Positions 40,868 to 53,283 of a stretch of DNA of 64,000 nucleotides are shown here, piece by piece; the first letter of the stretch is position 1; the number at the start of each line of letters is the position of its first letter. The notes beneath the pieces were generated by a model. It saw only the letters and a program-made list of their open reading frames with translations. It made no database searches and was not told the DNA's origin. The stretch lies in the NCBI RefSeq assembly GCF_000835495.1, contig NW_015622547.1:2108001-2172000 (forward strand). The letters are read 5' to 3'. Both the position numbers and the translations under genes were made by a program. This DNA comes from Cladophialophora immunda. Lineage: Eukaryota; Ascomycota; Eurotiomycetes; Chaetothyriales; Herpotrichiellaceae.

Positions 40868-41467
40868 GGTTGAGGGAGAGCGCAAATGCCTGTCAGGCTG
40901 GCGTAGTAAGTCTCAAGATATCTCGACCGAGCCCTCCACTCCTCACCAACGCAAGTTCGCCCATAGTGTCTCGGTGTATGTTCTAGGATATGTAACTTCG
41001 GTAGTCCAAGAGAATTGACGTATCATGCCCATTGTCGTCCGGAACGAGGCGTCGCGCCGCTTCGGCGCTCTTTGCGTCCCTCGTAAGGATATTCTATGGA
41101 ATCCTATGCAACCCAGCATGGTGGAACTTGCCGTGTTCTGGTCGTGACCATTGGCTTTTTGCTCCATCGTCGTAGCAGCAATCACGGTGCCATGCATCCC
41201 GTCGTCGGTCGATCCATTGTACGAGTTGATGGCGCGAACGGGGTGATAAGGTACCGAGTCTGGCGCTGAGGCTCGGCTTGCGGGCGGGTCTGGGGAGGGA
41301 TTAGGTACCTAGGTATGTACGAAAGTCCTTTGCTTGCCCAACGTTACACTGTCGACAGGTGGGACTCGCATAGATAATCTCTCACTCAACCGTTGGCTTT
41401 GCACAGCTCAAAAGGCCTAATCGAGAGAAACGGGCGGCTTGAGGTGGTCAAGCCAGTGCCAGGAATC
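40868..41467. other. Intergenic, no gene seen (600 bp)
   Basis: Between two plus-strand genes. A TAGGTACCTA palindrome is at 41302-41311, a motif common in intergenic DNA of many ascomycetes. No coding signal. Confidence 0.45.
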
Positions 41468-42247
41468 ATGGGCGACAAGACTTTCCACTATGAGCAGCGA
41501 CAGCTGGAGAATGATCTCGTCGCTCTCGTGCCATTCGAGGTATGTACGCACATCTACGCTACGGAAAAGCAATATCAAAGCCATTTGCTTGAACGGGGGA
41601 GCCTGACTCGGCAGCAGCCCAGTGTCCATACAACACCTTTCGTTGAGATGATCAAGACCTACCCGGAAATGTTTACGTACATTCCCTTCCCAGTCATAAA
41701 CAACGAGGAGGACTTCATGAGAGAGGCCTACGAGGCTATACGCTCCTCGCCGGCAGACTGTCTGTTCGCAGTCATGGACAAGGCCGCCACTCCTGGAGCG
41801 GGGGATACGAGCGCGAAGTTCGCCGGCGTGGTGTCCTTGTTTGCCACGAACCCGGTCAATGCGGTCACTGAAGTCGGCGTCATGATCTTCCCAGCCTTCC
41901 AGCGCACCCACGTGGCGACGAACGCGATAGGCCTCCTCCTCTTTTGGACGCTCGATCCGCCCTCCGCCGGCGGTCTGGGCCTGCGACGCGTTGTATGGCA
42001 AACCCACGCGGGGAACGCGGTATCTCGAAAGACTGCTTCGCGGATCGGGTTCGAGTTCGAAGGCATCGCGAGGTGGGATCGTGTGTTCCCGCACGGCAAA
42101 GTTGCACTCTCCGCGGAAGCTCTTCGAACAAGAAATGGTACGCAAGAGGAACAGCCGGGAAGGCACACCGCTGTCTATTCAATCGTATGGGATGAGTGGG
42201 AGGACAAGAGACCTAAAATCGCAGCGCTGATGGAACGGAAACAGTGA
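41468..42247 (+). CDS. GNAT-family N-acetyltransferase
   Basis: Two exons, 41468-41539 and 41615-42247, giving 234 aa. Splicing out 41540-41614 joins LVALVPFE to QPSVHTTPFVEMIKTYPEMFTYIPF, the usual N-terminal pattern of fungal RimJ/RimL-like GNAT proteins (substrate side of the fold). Core strands follow: FAGVVSLFATNPVNAVTEVGVMIFPAFQRTHVATNAIGLLLFW (strand 4 and the acetyl-CoA-binding region, here QRTHVAT rather than the canonical Q/RxxGxG/A) and RVVWQTHAGNAVSRKTASRIGFEFEG, which matches the conserved ending of this subfamily. It would acetylate a small molecule or protein N-terminus; the substrate is unknown. The first exon is less certain, as an upstream open stretch has no ATG. Confidence 0.8.
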   Translation: MGDKTFHYEQRQLENDLVALVPFEVCTHIYATEKQYQSHLLERGSLTRQQPSVHTTPFVEMIKTYPEMFTYIPFPVINNEEDFMREAYEAIRSSPADCLFAVMDKAATPGAGDTSAKFAGVVSLFATNPVNAVTEVGVMIFPAFQRTHVATNAIGLLLFWTLDPPSAGGLGLRRVVWQTHAGNAVSRKTASRIGFEFEGIARWDRVFPHGKVALSAEALRTRNGTQEEQPGRHTAVYSIVWDEWEDKRPKIAALMERKQ

Positions 42248-43338: not shown

Positions 43339-46300
43339 ATGCCTCCGTCTACTTACTCTATGCTCTCTCCTAGATCAGCGACTGATATCTCGTGCATACA
43401 TTGCTTCTGTCAATTATTTCCCTGGCGCACGTCGTATTCTCCTGCTGCAGCGACGAAAAAAATCTGCATGAGGCCGGCTATACCTCCCTCTTACTTTACG
43501 TGCGTAGAATGTGAAGCGAAATTCGAAGCAGCTGGCATCGTCTTCTGTGCTGGGTGCAATTATTATCAATGTCTGACTTGTTGGGACAAGCTTACCGCCC
43601 ACAAGAAAGGCATCCTGAGTCCTTCTGGCTTCCCACATGACAAAACCGACCCGTCAATGGTAGCCGCTCTCCAAGCGTGCCTGCGCGAGCCAGAAAACGA
43701 GGAGGAGCAGAATTTGAAACATGTTGAGGACGAGGAGACAACTTGGTTCGGTCTCGACAGAGAGGATACGGATGACTCGATCTTGGCCGAATACGGGAGA
43801 TATGCAACGATAATGTTGGAGACTGCACAACTGGCTGGGCAACAACGGTTCCCTCAGCTGGTGTCATTCATGGGCGTGACAAGTTGTTCATCCACTCGCT
43901 GCGATCCTATGCTGTGCTAACAAGCGTTAGATGCCGGAAAGAGCACGTTGATTAAATTACTTCTGGATCTCAAATCCTCAGACAATTCAGGGGAAGGCGC
44001 AGAGGTTGCCTCACCCATCATCGGTCGGAGCGAGTCTGACACTCCAACGTCAGCAGATGTTCACCTGTACGCAGATTCTGAGCTGTGTACCAGTGAGCGG
44101 CCTCTTCTGTATGCCGACTGCGAAGGCTTCGATGGTGGAGAGGCACTTCCAATCGCCCAGCTCGCCGTAGATGAAGGAGGCCGGCGCCTGGAAGGAACTT
44201 CGACAGGTCCCAGGACCAGCGGTCATGTACATCGCCTGACGAAGAAACTGACAGCAAGTTTCAAAAGAAGGCTTAAATGGGCTGTCAAAGATACATCTGG
44301 TGAGGGACATCGAGATCCCACCAGCCGCCGCGGTTTTGCTGTCTCGGAAATGTATCCCAAGATCTTGTATGCGTTTTCCGATGTCATTGTTTTTGTGCTT
44401 AACAATCCGAAGTGAGTTCCCTCTGGGGCCTGAAGGGGTGAAATGCTTACTCGAAGGACAGAACGCTGGAGGCAGTGGTTGAGCAAATGTTGACCTGGGC
44501 ACATGGGTTATACGAAGGGACAATCAATCGTCCCAGTCAACCTCGCATGATAATAGCCCTCAATAAATCCGACAACTCGACCCCTGCCGACCAATGGAGT
44601 CCTGAAAATGCCACAGCGAAGCTACTGAATTCCGCGCAAGCACAAATTGGGAAGAACGCTACATTTCAACGTTACCTGAAGTATTGGAATGCTAGGGACG
44701 AGTACTATCACATTGCTACGATGCAGGATTTATTGAGACGCTACTATGCGAGCGTGGATGTGATCCGATTGCCGCACAAGGGACGATACGAGCTACTCAA
44801 CAAGCAGCGCATACTCCTGCAGGAGCTGATCACAAGAGCCTGTCAAGCATCGTACGATGATAAATTGAGGCGTCAAATGCTGCTGAACGCTGATGAACTC
44901 GGCCTTTACCTCGACCTTGCCCTGACGCATTTCTCAGAGAGCCTGGAGGAACCCTTTGACTTTGTGAAGGCTTCGCTCAAACATCGCCCGACTCCAGCAA
45001 CTTTGTCGGAATATATTACGACGCTTGCGATTGAAGTAGAAGAACAATGCAAATACCACGACCAGCCGAAGCCTCTCTTCGAGAAGCTCACACCATTCAT
45101 CGCTTCATGCTTAATGCTCGACGCTGCACGTCAAGGACGTATTGGTGGGTCTGCATACCAGGTGCTGAACGTTACAAGTTACTAATGTCTTGTCTTTCAG
45201 GCCTTCCGAACGTGTGGTTCGGCAAGATCACGGATCAGGAGCCTCGCCACAAGGACACCAAATCATACGCGCAGGCCTGTCACGATGCGATCGAAGAATA
45301 CTGCGACCTGCGGCTTCCGTGTCACGCCGAATACCCTTTACCCTCTCGAGATCGTTCATGCGTCTTGTCGAGAAAGAGCCATGCGGGCTACCACCGTCGC
45401 AAGGGTAAAGCAGCAGCGATGCAACAAAACGATTGGCAGGGTGTCTGGGAGAATAAGTTTGATTGCAAGGATTTTAAATGGGACCAACAAGTCTTGAAGA
45501 GACTGGAGAATTCAGACAATTCTTCAAGACCCGAAACCTTTTTAAGTGAGGTGATCAAGAAACATACAAAGGCTCTTCCGATGTTTTACGACCAAGTAGG
45601 AGGATCGGAAAGATACATCATCCGTTCCATTTGCTTGGGGTGTCTGAGCCATGCACCCGAATTCGTCCTGAAGTGTGACCATGTGTTGTGTCGGAACTGT
45701 GTCAGGGATTTCGGGAGTGTTCAAAAGGACAGACATGTCTCTCTGCGCAGTTGTCCCCTAGGCCATGAGTTTGAAAAGGGAGAAGAACAGCGGCTCCCAG
45801 AACTGAGTCCACCTTTCAGTGGGATGAGTGTCTTGGTCCTCGATGGGTGCGCATTTCTCATCATCTTATTCCTCGTTTTCTTACTGACCAATGTCGCAGG
45901 GGTGGAGTACGCGGGATAGTCGAGTGTGCGATCCTAGAAGCAATCGAGGAATTGATCGGAGTACCTGCCTTTTACTTCTTCGACCTCGTGGTCGGTACAA
46001 GGTAGGTTTTATCTTGTCCTGGAGTTCTGCTCTAATCTTTGCCAAGTACGGGAGGCATCATGGCGCTTGCCCTTGGGCACAATATGTGGAGTGCTAGAAA
46101 GTGCACCGAGAACTTCCTAAAGTTTGTGAAGAAGGCTTTCACACCCCGCCCAGGTCACGACGTGAAATACTTCAAATACTTGCAGCTCGCTTGGTCCCAC
46201 AGCATATACAGGACCGGAGGTCTGGAAACGGCGCTGAAAGAATCGTTCGGCCCAGAGAACATTCTGTTTGACCAGCGAGAACAATGTCAACTCCAGCACA

Positions 46301-47449
46301 TGCCTAAAGTGGCTGTTGTTTCGAAAATGAAATCCAGCGGAACATATCTTTTTGCAAACTACAATGCACGACCACATCCAGACAAGAAATACCAGAGGTG
46401 GCGACCTCAATCCAAAGATGACGAGTGTCTCACCTGGGAAGCGTAGGTCGAACACGATTTATGCCTATAAAGATTTCATGCTAACTCCTGTGAGCGCGAG
46501 ATGTACGTCGGCGGCACCAGGTTACTTCAAGCCTTATGCTTTCAGTGGCAGGCCACGAGAACTGTGGCTCGACGGTTGTCTATTTCACAATAACCCCGTC
46601 GAAATAGCTCTTGAAGAATGGAAACTGCTGGCGGAGCATTGTGGAGACAAGCCGCTCATAGACTCGATGTTGTCCCTCGGAACCGGCCGCGTGAGAGACG
46701 ACTGCATACCGCAAGAAGAAGATGGCGCTCAAAAAGACGAATCTTTCCTCAAGTTCCTCTACAACACAGTAGAGAACCAAGTGAAACTAAGTTTGGGAAC
46801 CGATACGCGATGGGATCAGACGAAGTCGCAACAAACGGTTGGCCTACGACCGCGAATGCATCGAATCAATCCGGACCTAGGGTTTGCACCGCCAAAGATG
46901 GACGACGTGGCTCGTGTGGACGAGATGTACAATGCAGTAAAACGCCACAGCACCCAAGGTCCAATGCGCGATCAGATCGTCGAGGTCGCATGCATTCTAG
47001 TCGCACACATGTTCTTCTTCCAGAAGACGAAAGACGCTTCACGCCCTCCAGGGTCCCATCTCACCGCCTTGTCAGGCACCATTGCCTGCCGGATCAGGGA
47101 CACGGATCCGAAGTTGGACGATCTGGGAAACTTCATCAAAAAATACTCACATGACCCCGAAGCCGCGGTCTTTCGCGTGCGCATATTCCACGAGTCGACC
47201 GATGCACCGCGCGGGAAGTCTACTGACTCGATAGTGCGCATACCATTTGCCACTTCCGTGCCGGCCAGCCAACATGAACGCTGGGGCTTTCAATTCCCTG
47301 AGCAAACAATCATGGTGGAGAATGATAGTACTCTGATCAATATTGAACTCAACCTCGAAAACGCTCGTTGGGAGTCGGCCTGGTGCAGCATCAGCGGATT
47401 CCCCAGGCAGTTGATGAAGGCTGACTACGGAAATTCAGTGAGGGTGTGA
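43339..47449 (+). CDS. Zinc finger - GTPase - RING - patatin multidomain protein
   Basis: Seven exons, 43339-43882, 43931-44411, 44462-45144, 45201-45846, 45900-46001, 46047-46442 and 46495-47449, join in frame to 1,268 aa (1,225 if the ATG at 43468 is used). Domains: a B-box/ZZ-like finger (C55, C58, C70, C73, C78, C81, H88); a P-loop GTPase with G1 GVTNAGKST (179-187), G3 DCEG (244-247) and G4 NKSD (376-379); a helical middle; a RING-like finger (C714, C717, C728, H730, C733, C736, C754, H758); and a C-terminal patatin lipase with DGGGVRG (784-790), GTSTGG (Ser819) and WLDG (Asp977). All three enzyme-type centres look intact. The G1 junction uses a weak donor (GTTGTT), chosen by phase and because it restores the P-loop. 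Fungi have similar long lysophospholipase-like proteins of unknown role. I infer a nucleotide-gated lipase, perhaps in defence or incompatibility. Confidence 0.85.
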
Positions 47450-48143: not shown

Positions 48144-49528
48144 ATGTCTTTCTCCTTCGGCTTCAGCGGTGATGATATCGAGGACGACGGAGAGTCCCAA
48201 GAGCACGAGGCCCTCGCCAGCAAGATCTCCGAGTATACGTTATCCGAGCCAGGAAAGTCTCCTCCGCATGCTACCATCCAGCCACAGAGCCATTCGCTGG
48301 CAGAATTGGTAAGTTCTCTCTGGTCTGCGAGATGTGGATTCTAGTATGGCCTCCCTTTGCCAAAAAAAAAGGACCAAGCTGCCTTTCTCCATGAACAAGA
48401 CCAAGACAAAGTCTCATGACCATCGAATCTTCCCAGTTAGCATCATTGCCATCCCAGATATCGTACAGCAAGCTGCATATACCCCAGTCGACGGACCATG
48501 GCTTCCACGACACCAAAACCAACGACAACGGCGCCGAGACCACGCTCTTCCGGCGCTCGGTGTTTGACATCCGCGCCCAGCTCATGACCGAAGCGAACCC
48601 CTCCGCCGAAGAAGAGGATGTCGCCAAAACGCTCCTCTCGGGCCTGGAAAGCGGCGACCTCTCGTCAGGCATCTACGAAGGAGGCTTCAAGACGTGGGAA
48701 TGCGCGCTTGACCTAGCCTCCCTCGTCGGCTCGGACCCAGACCTCTTCGATCGCGACCGCACCCCCTCGGCTCTGGAGGAGGATTGGGAGGTCGTCGAAC
48801 TCGGCGCGGGAAGCGCCGTGCCAAGTTTGGCGCTCATGCAAAAGTTCCTCGAGCGGAGGAAAAGTCACCACCCGGCGCGCGGTGGCGGGAGCCTGAGGTT
48901 GACGTTGTGCGACTACAACGCCGACGTGCTCCGACTGGCCACCGCGCCCAACGCGCTCCTCAACTACCTCTTTGCTTCGGGGAAACTGGCCCCGTCTCTC
49001 GACGAGGGTGGCCGGGACGGAGACCTCGACCTCGAAGAACTGGGAGGCGAGCCCTTTGTGAACCGCACCATCCAGGACATGGCCTCCGATCGCATATCGA
49101 TCGATTTCATATCGGGGGGATGGGGCCCGGAATTCCTCGACCTCATCAACCCATCGTCACCGCGAGGATCAGGAGGGACAGGCCAGCAACACCGGCCCGC
49201 AACGAACCTGCTGATCCTCGCTTCCGAAACAATCTACTCGCCATCCTCGATCAGGGCATTCTCGGAAACCGTCCGCGCCCTCTTGTCTCCCCACTCCCGT
49301 CGTCCCGAGACCCGAACGGGGCTGGCGAAGGCACTCCCGCCCAAAGCCTGGGTCGCTGCAAAGAGAGTCTACTTCGGCGTTGGGGGCGGAGTGGACGAGT
49401 TCGTCAGGGAGATGGACGCGCTTGGTGGGAGCACGCGGGTTGTCATGGAAATCAAGGATGCGGGAGTGGGAAGGGTCGTGTTGGAGGTCACACCCCCAGC
49501 TCCTCCAGATACTACTTCTGTTTCATAG
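48144..49528 (+). CDS. HPM1: Protein-histidine N-methyltransferase HPM1-like
   Basis: Two exons, 48144-48308 and 48437-49528, giving 418 aa. Yeast Hpm1 (human METTL18) methylates a histidine of ribosomal protein uL3 with S-adenosylmethionine, tuning ribosome assembly and elongation. Visible marks: SGIYEGGFKTWECALDLASLV, the family signature just before the SAM site; motif I as VVELGAGSAVPSLALM; the acidic LCDYNADVLRLAT at the end of strand 2, which binds the SAM ribose; and ILASETIYSP near the active site. Inserted low-complexity segments (GGRDGDLDLEELGG, GSGGTGQQ) lengthen it relative to yeast. It is convergent with eIF3a, another translation gene. Confidence 0.88.
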
Positions 49529-49860: not shown

Positions 49861-52800
49861 TCACTGCTGGCGACTGCGCATACTTGGAGGCACGTACCTT
49901 CCTGGCCCCCCCGACGCAGGCTTTCTCTGTGCTGCTTCGTCACCACTGCCCTGTGCTGGAGAACCCGCCCCTTCTCTTGACAAGCTGCGGCCTCCATCCC
50001 TCATGTGCATCGGCACATAACGTCCGCCTTGTGCGCCGTTAGCGGGAGACGCGGACGCATTGCGCGCAGGTGGATGATGGTCGCGAGCAGGCGGGTGGTG
50101 ATAGTCACGAGCAGGTGGATGATCTGGCCCAGATCGAGCAGATCCGCTTTCACGAAGATGTGGAGGAACATATCCACCTTGGCGACGGGCTGGTGGTTCT
50201 TGAACTGAAGGCGCAGCCTGAGACGGAGCGGAAGCCTCTGCAGGAACCGGTCCAGGACCACCAGGGATGGAAGCTTCTTTTGCGGCTTGTCGTTCGCGCC
50301 AGCCGCCGCCGGCTTTACCGGCCAGTTGAAGACGAGGTGCGGTTCGTGGGCCTTCTTGGGACTCGGTCCGGGCTTCCATGGGAGGGGCTTCTCTCGGTCC
50401 TCCGCGAGAGAACGGCGCCGGCGCCGGCACCGGCGCTCCTTGTTCGGCTTTTCGAGCCGCTCTCCTCGCTGCAGCTTCTTCCTCACGTTGCATCTGTTTT
50501 CTCGCGGCTTCTTCGCGTTCGAGTCGAGCGGCCTCCGCCTGAGCTCGTCGCTCGGCGGCAACTCGTTTCTTTTCTTCCTCGGCCTTCGCTTTCTCCTCGT
50601 CCTCGCGCTGTCTACGCTCTTCCTCCTCGCGAATGCGACGCTCTTCGGCTTCTTGGGCTGCACGCTGTCTGGCCTTCTCCTCGTGGTAAGCCTTGATCCG
50701 TTTGCGCTTCTCTTCCTCAAACTCCCGCTCGGCTCGCTTACGAAGCCTCTCAAACTCAGCAGCACGACGCTCCGTGATTTGGCCCTTGAAGGTGTCATAC
50801 TCTTTGACGAGTCTGCTGAGACGATGCTTCAGAGCCAGACCTTCCTTATGCTTTTCCTGTGCTTCCTTCAGCATGAGCTCTTTGTTTTGCTCGTAGATCT
50901 TCATGTCTTCCTCCCGCTGCTTTTCATAATCCGACTGTTGGTACTTGAGCTCCTCCCGGCGGAATGCACGCTCGAGATGATCGAGACGCTTGGCCGTGAT
51001 GCGGATGCGTTCGTCCTTTTCTTTCTTGTCTTTCTCGAGTTGTGACAACTTGAGATAACGGATTTGGTTCGAATCCAGTTCGTCAATGTTCACGTCTTGG
51101 AGATCGATCTTCATGCCACTTTGCAGTTCGGCTAGCTGTTTTTCTATTTCCTGACGTCGAATGCGGGCTTGCTCATCCTTCACACGCTTGAGCTCACGAG
51201 CTCTTGTCTCATCGCGCAGGCGCTGAGATTCAGCCTCTGCCTGCTGTTGAGCACGAATGCGACGACGAGTTTCTTCCTCTCTCTGTCTCTTCTGGAAAGC
51301 CTCTGAAGCCGCTTCCTTTTTCTTCTCGATGACGACACGCCTCTCGAGAGTCTCCTGGTGCTCTTGTTCGGCTCCAGCCTCAGCGCGAGCAAGAGCGGTT
51401 TCTCTCGCCGCCAAACGAGCCTGGTTGTACGATGGGTCGACATACATGCATGTCACATGCAAAGTCTTTGCCAGTCTTGTAAGCTGCGATCGAGCAATCT
51501 CGGCTGGAGTATTCTGAAGTCTTTGGACTGAACCAACTTCGCTCTCTGCCGATCCTGCCGCGCTGCCCGGATGGAGAGCCTTCGCAGAGGAGAAGACATC
51601 GGAGTCGAAGGCCAAGATACCAGAAATATGGTCAAGTCTGATGGACAGATCGCCCTTTTTGCAACCATTCATGATGAACTTCTCGATCATTGCGGGAGTC
51701 ACCTCAAATGGCGCAGGGAACTGAGCGAGCCGCGTCACAAAACTCAACTCCACTGATTCGTAGACTTGTGAGAGTTGCTGGAAGAGGCGGGTAAGGATGA
51801 CTTGCTGGAGAGGAAGAACATATTTCTCCATTTCGGGATCAGCTCCGATCTGAGCCAGAATAGGCGAGATCTTCTTGCAAATCGAGAGAGGATGGAAATC
51901 GACCTCAAGGATATTGTAGAGGTCCCGAATCTCCGGTCGAACACGCTTGAGCAAGCCCTTGCTGAGTGCGTCCTTGAAGAGTCCTGCCCTTGTTGGCGCA
52001 AATGGCATGCTGAGAAGGTTGGTCAAGCGATTGTTCTTGTTCTTCCGTGCCTCATCCACATCGACCAACGCACCTCGCGAACGAGACGTGCTGATAACGG
52101 GAATAGCCAACGCAGAAAGCAGTACAAAGGAGGCGGCCTTGGTCAAAGAATCCTCCGTGACAGCTGGGTTATCGCGCTTTGGAGACTGGCCAGATGCGAT
52201 GGCAGCTGCGGACTGTCGGAGTAGGTTGTAGTACTTGTTCCACGCTGCTGCATGGAACAAAAAGTTGTCACTGACAAGAAAGATCTTGGTGAGCTTCTCG
52301 TAATAATTGGCCATCATGACATTCTTCGCCGGTCGCTTGGAAAGTGTAAGAAGCATATGGATATCTTCGACGCTGCGGAAAGCCTCCTGCCATAATTCAA
52401 GCTCATCTGCCACATTCAACTGTCGAAAACGTGTTTCGAGATGACGCTGTAGAGTGTCGGGTTCATTTAAATTGATGGCGTGCATTTGGGAGGAGTATTT
52501 GGCAGCATTCTGCACATGGTTTCGTAGGAGTTCACACAGCCGACGGAATTCAGTCTTTCGCGTATACTTGAGACAGAAATCGAAGGCTTGATGAGCAGTG
52601 CTCTGATACATAACCTCCAGACGAGCATTGTTCTTCAGGATCTCCAAGACTGTGCGATACGTCTCCCAGAGGAACTTGAGCCATGGCGTAACAATTGCTC
52701 GATCCGTTCGATCTTTGGATTGTTCACCGGAGACAGTAGCGAGGAGGATGGTTTCCGGAGTTTCGGTGGCCTCGAGGTCTTCGACATTGAGGGCTGTGGC

Positions 52801-53283
52801 ACTCGCCGCCGACTCAAGCGACGATTGAACCTGGTCAGCCTTGGCTTGAGCCTCCTGAACTTTTTGTTCGGCGAGCTCAATGAATTTTTTCAAGACCAAC
52901 TGCGACCCGTCAGCACGTGTTAACAGAAAGCGCTGTGTGTCTAAACTATCATACCTCGATCGTTCCCACGTTCGTGTTTTGTGCAATGTTCTTGTACTGG
53001 TACAGTCCATCTTTTGCGGATTTGCCCTTTCTTAGATCGACACACAACTCGACGAAAAGGAGCATAACCGGCTCCAAGGAGGAGATGGGGCTATTCCGGG
53101 AACGTTTGGAGGTGACATGTTCATGGAGGACGTTGAGAGCCGCTTGGGTTTGGTCGACGGCAATGAGCTCTTGCGCTCGCTGAAAGCGTCTGTCAGTCAT
53201 TTGTGCGCGGCAGGATGGACGTGAAGGGATTTTCGCCTTACTCTGAGCACATTCTCAGGCCTGATATGGGGTGGTGGAGGCAT
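49861..53283 (-). CDS. TIF32: Translation initiation factor eIF3 subunit a
   Basis: Three exons on the minus strand, 53242-53283 ([14 protein letters not shown]), 52955-53179 and 49861-52899, giving 1,101 aa. eIF3a is the scaffold subunit of eIF3 and bridges the 40S subunit, mRNA and other factors during scanning. N-terminus [22 protein letters not shown] and KGLYQYKN-type segments are those of the family; the PCI domain lies around residues 300-520. From about 560 to 840 there is a long Arg/Glu/Lys-rich coiled coil typical of eIF3a, followed by a Pro/Ala/Gly/Arg low-complexity tail with repeated GGRYVP and [10 protein letters not shown] motifs. The exon 2/3 junction is set at [16 protein letters not shown] by comparison with the family. 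Confidence 0.95.

Follow-up and report, generated by a model that had tools for sequence, protein, structure and literature searches.

A fungal protein family that joins a predicted GBP/atlastin-type GTPase, zinc fingers and a patatin-like lipase

Introduction

Accounts of fungal immunity focus on NLRs whose switch is a NACHT or NB-ARC domain (PMC12881547, PMC10197012, PMC12258605); the words GTPase and RING are absent from the main text of these three papers. In Neurospora crassa, the patatin–NB-ARC–TPR protein PLP-1 triggers cell death upon non-self recognition, and this death needs both patatin activity and the nucleotide-binding motif (PMC12881547). We describe a gene in a 64,000-nucleotide stretch of the Cladophialophora immunda genome (contig NW_015622547.1, positions 2,108,001 to 2,172,000; hereafter the window), whose predicted product, like PLP-1, combines a patatin effector and a nucleotide-binding switch in one fungal protein. 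The patatin domain is N-terminal in PLP-1, where it is joined to NB-ARC and TPR modules, whereas the window protein has a C-terminal patatin domain, a GBP-like GTPase, zinc fingers and no Pfam repeats.

Three other described systems resemble parts of this protein. The hetC product of Aspergillus fumigatus, which belongs to the Eurotiomycetes like the host of our gene, is a patatin-like protein acting as a het gene (PMC11138114); it is described as having a patatin-like domain but no further parts of an NLR, and the likeness is one of description only. In RNF112 (neurolastin), a RING E3 shares one protein with a GTPase of the class proposed here, which has an arginine in its P-loop; the G domain dimerises in the transition state, like those of other dynamin-superfamily members, and ubiquitination by RNF112 is independent of the GTPase state (PMC12012479). 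The RING of RNF112 lies ahead of the GTPase and that of the window protein behind it, and the part of PMC12012479 that was available describes no lipase. The CBASS phospholipases CapV and CapE are bacterial, whereas the window protein is fungal and carries a GTPase in cis, and no CD-NTase was recognised among the 10 window open reading frames scanned. A search by title and the beginning of the abstract found no published description of the whole architecture among the titles listed, which is weak evidence that none exists, bioRxiv preprints and most of the subscription literature being outside its scope.

Below, we show that the window gene belongs to a fungal family with a common domain order. 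At a probability of roughly 45%, we read its product as a nucleotide-switched membrane-lipase effector in which a GBP/dynamin-like switch would drive a CapV-like phospholipase in conflict or cell death.

One gene with a conserved domain order

Judging from the window protein and its homologues, the order from the N-terminus is a ZZ/B-box-like finger, a GBP/atlastin-type GTPase, a candidate CCHH zinc site, a RING-like finger, a CapV/iPLA2-like patatin domain and a mostly-beta region; the domain folds come from structure prediction on two relatives. Residue numbers follow the 1266-residue version of the spliced protein that starts at 43339. The features, all on the forward strand, are as follows.

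43468..47449, +, probable coding region, seven exons, 1223 residues; the deposited protein P0001 begins at this ATG
43501..43638, +, ZZ/B-box-like finger, C55, C58, C70, C73, C78, C81, H88 and H100; conserved ligands, weak profile matches
43726..44951, +, predicted GBP/atlastin-type large GTPase domain, residues ~130-505, exons 1-3; limits transferred from residues 79-445 of P0021
43873..43947, +, G1/P-loop GVTNAGKST from residue 179, split by intron 1 (43883-43930); K185 at 43939-43941
44047..44049, +, T221, candidate switch-I (G2) threonine in PTS-x-DVHLY; invariant in 121/121 rows
44116..44127, +, G3 motif DCEG, D244-G247; read in the protein and conserved in the alignment
44562..44573, +, NKSD at the G4 position, residues 376-379; canonical in the window protein and P0001 only
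45320..45394, +, candidate zinc site C610-x12-C623-x6-H630-x3-H634 between G domain and RING; conserved pattern
45632..45766, +, RING-like finger, C714, C717, C728, H730, C733, C736, C754 and H758; ligand conservation
45833..46612, +, patatin-like phospholipase, Pfam span 781-988, exons 4-7; PF01734, 1.5e-22
45842..45919, +, oxyanion loop DGGGVRG, 784-790, split by intron 4; motif read in the protein
46000..46047, +, codon of catalytic Ser819 (GTSTGG from 817), split by intron 5 (46002-46046); sequence
46571..46573, +, catalytic Asp975 (WLDG from 973); sequence and alignment
47390..47407, +, conserved ISGFPR motif ending the mostly-beta C-terminal region; conservation

The homologue search scored 7992 proteins, with 229 at E <= 1e-3; the best 120 of these 229 were aligned with the window protein (121 rows), and the family results below refer to this set. 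A patatin domain is present in 118 of the 120 homologues and the alignment covers more than 80% of the window protein in 105 of them. The single polypeptide with GTPase, RING-like finger and patatin proposed in an earlier note on this DNA stands. Several homologues are labelled 'FabD/lysophospholipase-like' or 'calcium-independent phospholipase A2-gamma', names that cover the lipase part only, and most others 'hypothetical protein'. Many carry precomputed matches to a recent Pfam accession, PF28431.

The seven exons (43339-43882, 43931-44411, 44462-45144, 45201-45846, 45900-46001, 46047-46442 and 46501-47449) were rebuilt in frame into 3801 coding bases, giving 1266 residues and not the 1268 implied earlier, and all six introns have GT..AG borders. 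The deposited P0001 (CLAIMM_12685, Cladophialophora immunda, 1224 residues) is 99% identical over 97% of the protein, differing by six substitutions and by RY replacing N182 at intron 1. It starts at residue 44 (ATG 43468) and homologue P0002 starts some residues further in; therefore we take 43468 as the probable start instead of the formerly proposed 43339, which adds 43 residues that are unsupported. The deposited P0006 begins downstream of the N-terminal finger. At intron 1, the weak GTTGTT donor at 43883 yields the G-x4-GKS spacing of the P-loop kept across the family, whereas the P0001 model has one extra residue (GVTRYAGKST) and is off this spacing. The donor is thus supported, not proved, and the deposited model departs there. 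P0001 is apparently mis-spliced at the P-loop intron.

Could the gene model be an artefact, in which at least two genes, or a decayed gene, are joined by wishful splicing? The departure of the annotation of near-identical P0001 at intron 1 and at the start speaks for it. Against it stand (i) the homologue coverage given above; (ii) paralogue L025, which keeps a single open frame of 853 residues from its Cys-rich N-terminus, via GTPase and RING, into the beginning of the patatin; (iii) the intact 99%-identical protein in a second sequence; and (iv) introns 4 and 5, whose positions (LDG|GGIRG and VGT|STGG) are shared with paralogue L023. Because patatin is so widespread among the homologues and L025 keeps a single frame, two separate genes are very unlikely. 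With the in-frame rebuild and the shared introns, we reject this explanation as highly improbable; the comparison of sequences indicates that the architecture is real and conserved in fungi.

The predicted GTPase switch

In the 121 rows, the P-loop residues G179, G184 and S186 are invariant and K185 is present in 120, the G-x4-G-K-[ST] spacing being kept almost throughout. The residues of G3 are equally constant (D in 121, C in 116, E in 120, G in 121), and T221 aligns on the first threonine of Sey1 TTRGIWL. The G4 position is another matter: N-[AGS]-[TS]-[DE] is found in 85/121 rows, the rest being variable, and in the nearest rows the residues after NK are not acidic. Since canonical NKxD is limited to the window protein and P0001, guanine specificity is no more than plausible, and a canonical NKxD is rejected as a family trait.

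Structures were modelled for two relatives only, P0021 and P0006. In both, the P-loop domain matches a GBP/atlastin-type G domain, which supports a switch of this type with a helical region. This agrees with the earlier proposal of a GTPase rather than a NACHT/NB-ARC switch and narrows its fold. Pfam gave no NACHT or NB-ARC match in the window protein at E <= 1, nor any ANK, TPR, WD or HEAT repeat; the C-terminus consists of patatin and the beta region. In a member-by-member Pfam scan of 35 members, NPHP3_N matched two weakly (best 0.031), like other P-loop families. An NLR with a hidden NACHT or NB-ARC was rejected on the predicted fold of P0021 and P0006.

The domain nevertheless differs from GBP, atlastin and Sey1 in sequence, apart from the added zinc fingers and lipase. 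PF02263 (GBP) and PF05879 (RHD3) match only the Sey1 locus on C3 in the genome; they are not among the three Pfam families found for the window protein at E <= 1, nor among the 25 of 56 families listed in the 35-member scan. With a family model (built from 78 of the 120 homologues), hhalign against Sey1 gave probabilities of 31 and 21 over 69 and 93 columns spanning G1-G3, a weak match only modestly better than those of two control GTPases (14-15 over 22-26 columns). An RD at G4 is characteristic of GB1/RHD3 GTPases; the Sey1 of the same genome reads VIRDF there, and no RD was found in the window protein, which has NKSD. GBP and atlastin have an arginine in the P-loop, where the window protein has N182 and the family G in 72, N in 44, S in four and R in one of the 121 rows. 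As Sey1 (GSQSTGKS) also lacks this arginine, it does not define the whole GB1/RHD3 class. The Pfam misses, the absent RD and the weak Sey1 alignment led us to reject filing the protein as a GBP/atlastin family member.

The zinc fingers

The six cysteines and H88 of the N-terminal finger are kept in 96-113 of the 121 rows and H100 in 118. In the 35-member scan it matched CEBP_ZZ in four members (best 7.8e-6) and zf-B_box in 15 (best 0.0034), and its matches to solved structures, the MID1 B-box and p300/CBP, are weak. At the candidate CCHH site, C610, C623 and H630 are present in 114, 114 and 115 of the 121 rows, respectively; the fourth ligand is a histidine at column 633 in 114, where the window protein has a tyrosine, its histidine being at 634.

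Each of the seven RING ligands C714-C754 is conserved in 117-119 of the 121 rows. The eighth is shifted by one in the window protein (CPLGH, versus CPLH-like in 102/121; CPLC in L025), and the Pfam RING models score under their cut-off on it. The claim that all key residues are intact is not fully supported: the lipase site is intact in this protein but altered in a third of the scored rows, the last RING ligand is displaced, and canonical NKxD is confined to the window protein and P0001. The RING may ubiquitinate its own protein or a partner, or serve as a structural hinge.

The lipase and its fate across the family

PF01734 scores 81.2 bits on the window protein against a curated cut-off of 27.7, and the match to the patatin fold extends to about residue 1126 (47026). 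The G-x-S-x-G serine, the DG aspartate and the glycine-rich oxyanion loop are all intact; of the dyad proposed earlier, Ser819 stands and Asp977 is correctly Asp975. After the catalytic DG, the window protein has a cysteine (LDGC) and most of the family a G or A. The family profile matches CapV at 7.4e-31 and the PADLOC phospholipase effector model matches P0001 at 8.7e-32, supporting the suggested kinship with bacterial defence lipases and a CapV/iPLA2-like assignment, while P0001 alone as query ranks iPLA2beta first, above CapV.

Motifs were scored in 118 rows; the lipase site was scorable in 115. Serine, aspartate and oxyanion loop are intact in 74 of these, the window protein included. Three of the 41 altered sites (P0010, P0011 and P0059) were set aside as apparently mis-spliced, leaving 38/115, and the family as a whole therefore does not depend on lipase activity; intact lipase residues, like NKxD, are not a family trait. 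In the deposited models of these three proteins, the GT|STGG intron, which lies within the catalytic motif, is apparently spliced wrongly, and errors of automated annotation may often fall on key motifs in this family.

A FastTree tree that includes the lipase columns was built from 118 of the 121 rows, omitting P0001, which nearly duplicates the window protein, and two rows in which gaps reach 25% or more; on it, the 38 altered rows form two clades. In one, of 25 rows, the serine is replaced by glycine (GTGTG and variants; e.g. P0055, P0073, P0078 and P0080) while the oxyanion loop and the aspartate are kept; these are likely pseudo-lipases or altered enzymes, largely from what we take, by organism name, to be Capnodiales/Mycosphaerellales-type fungi. 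In the other, of 13 rows and presumably, again by name, from Xylariales-type fungi, the serine, oxyanion loop or aspartate is changed. On a tree from the non-lipase columns, the fewest lipase-site changes are five, of which we infer that two would remain if P0010, P0011 and P0059 are annotation errors. The FastTree tree has long branches, including that of the window protein, whose placement is uncertain.

These counts bear on a different explanation, namely that the protein is first a GTPase-controlled ubiquitin ligase or scaffold, whose patatin fold binds a lipid or a partner, catalysis being optional. The GTPase motifs are intact in 117/118 rows and all seven scored RING ligands in 113/118, yet the lipase is altered in the 38 rows above, and RNF112, with its RING E3 and a GTPase of this class in one protein, provides a precedent (PMC12012479). 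However, the window protein and 73 other rows keep a complete lipase site, its own eighth RING ligand is displaced, three loci of the genome (L027, L028 and L029) retain RING and patatin without a recognised P-loop, and RNF112 ubiquitination does not depend on the GTPase state (PMC12012479). We find this explanation quite unlikely.

Copies and turnover

In the 42.2-Mb genome, five loci hold GTPase, RING and patatin segments: the window locus, L023, L024, L025 and L026. L024 (C5:530500-536500) looks like a decaying copy, because its matched stretches contain in-frame stops and its G3 reads DCED instead of DCEG. At L027 (C3:302500-310000), L028 (C2:738000-745000) and L029 (C6:2917000-2924000), the loci without a recognised P-loop, the GTPase seems to have been lost or replaced.

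The best match of the window protein outside its own species, among the best 120 of 229, is at 41% identity (C. carrionii), with Xylariales rows next, at 37-39%; P0012 reaches 46% over 40% of the protein only. For L025, identity is 81-84% with Fonsecaea proteins and 64% with one from C. carrionii, and Sey1 is at 93-96% identity across the same genera. Family members also occur in Podospora species (P0183 and P0193). No protein named Fonsecaea or C. bantiana is among these 120 homologues of the window protein. The divergence and the uneven listing fit either the gain and loss of genes or rapid sequence change, like that of conflict genes in fungi.

Such a pattern has to be set against a role in membrane or lipid homeostasis, in which an atlastin/Sey1-like GTPase would shape or recruit membranes of the endoplasmic reticulum or lipid droplets, an iPLA2-like domain would remodel phospholipids and the fingers would set protein turnover, with no part in conflict. 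A housekeeping enzyme would not be expected to diverge so steeply relative to Sey1, to be listed so unevenly in related species, to exist in one genome as several copies that have diverged or decayed, or to have its lipase site altered in two clades; we hold this explanation to be unlikely.

A possible mechanism

If the protein is a nucleotide-switched membrane-lipase effector, as we propose, then (i) the GTPase would be triggered by some cue of non-self or damage, which the fingers or a partner would sense; (ii) the G domains would form dimers or oligomers, like those of RNF112, GBP and atlastin; (iii) the C-terminal lipases would thereby be clustered and activated in cis, like CapV in filaments; and (iv) the active lipases would hydrolyse membrane lipids, so that the cell or hyphal compartment would stop growing or die. 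GTP-driven activation of the lipase in cis is inferred from RNF112 dimerisation, from CapV filaments (solved structures titled as such, with cGAMP, exist among the fold-search entries) and from PLP-1 cell death. The patchy listing, the copy turnover and the PLP-1 precedent are consistent, by analogy, with a role in heterokaryon incompatibility or antiviral death. Several points weigh against our proposal: the altered lipase sites of 38 rows, from which it follows that not every family member needs lipase activity, the first rank of iPLA2beta with P0001 as query, the weak alignment with Sey1, the confinement of the GBP and RHD3 Pfam matches to the Sey1 locus, and the absence of a recognisable HET, NLR, SNARE or CD-NTase gene among the 10 window open reading frames scanned.

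The architecture extends a known kind, a nucleotide switch coupled to a lethal effector; if our GTPase–lipase proposal is true, the family would be a second switch class beside NACHT/NB-ARC and would account for many proteins labelled just 'hypothetical' or 'FabD/lysophospholipase-like'. A bolder and doubtful extension is that it forms a separate class of immune-type receptors in filamentous fungi. In these receptors, the switch that controls a CBASS-type phospholipase in cis would be a GBP/dynamin-like GTPase instead of a STAND ATPase, the zinc fingers would act as a sensor or ubiquitin module, and the clades with altered lipases would be non-lethal sensors, helpers or decoys. A single fungal family would then connect the GBP immunity of animals with the CBASS lipases of bacteria. 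For the proposed activation of a lipase in cis by GTP-driven assembly, the two altered-lipase clades offer natural controls.

Neighbouring genes

Upstream of the gene lies an open reading frame for a GNAT acetyltransferase (41378-42244); downstream, a frame without a Pfam match at 1e-4 (48395-49525) is followed by eIF3a on the minus strand (49864-53031). Farther upstream, between 25383 and 37777, open reading frames matching MFS transporters, an amidohydrolase, a metallo-beta-lactamase fold and a Zn2Cys6 regulator possibly form a small catabolic gene cluster.

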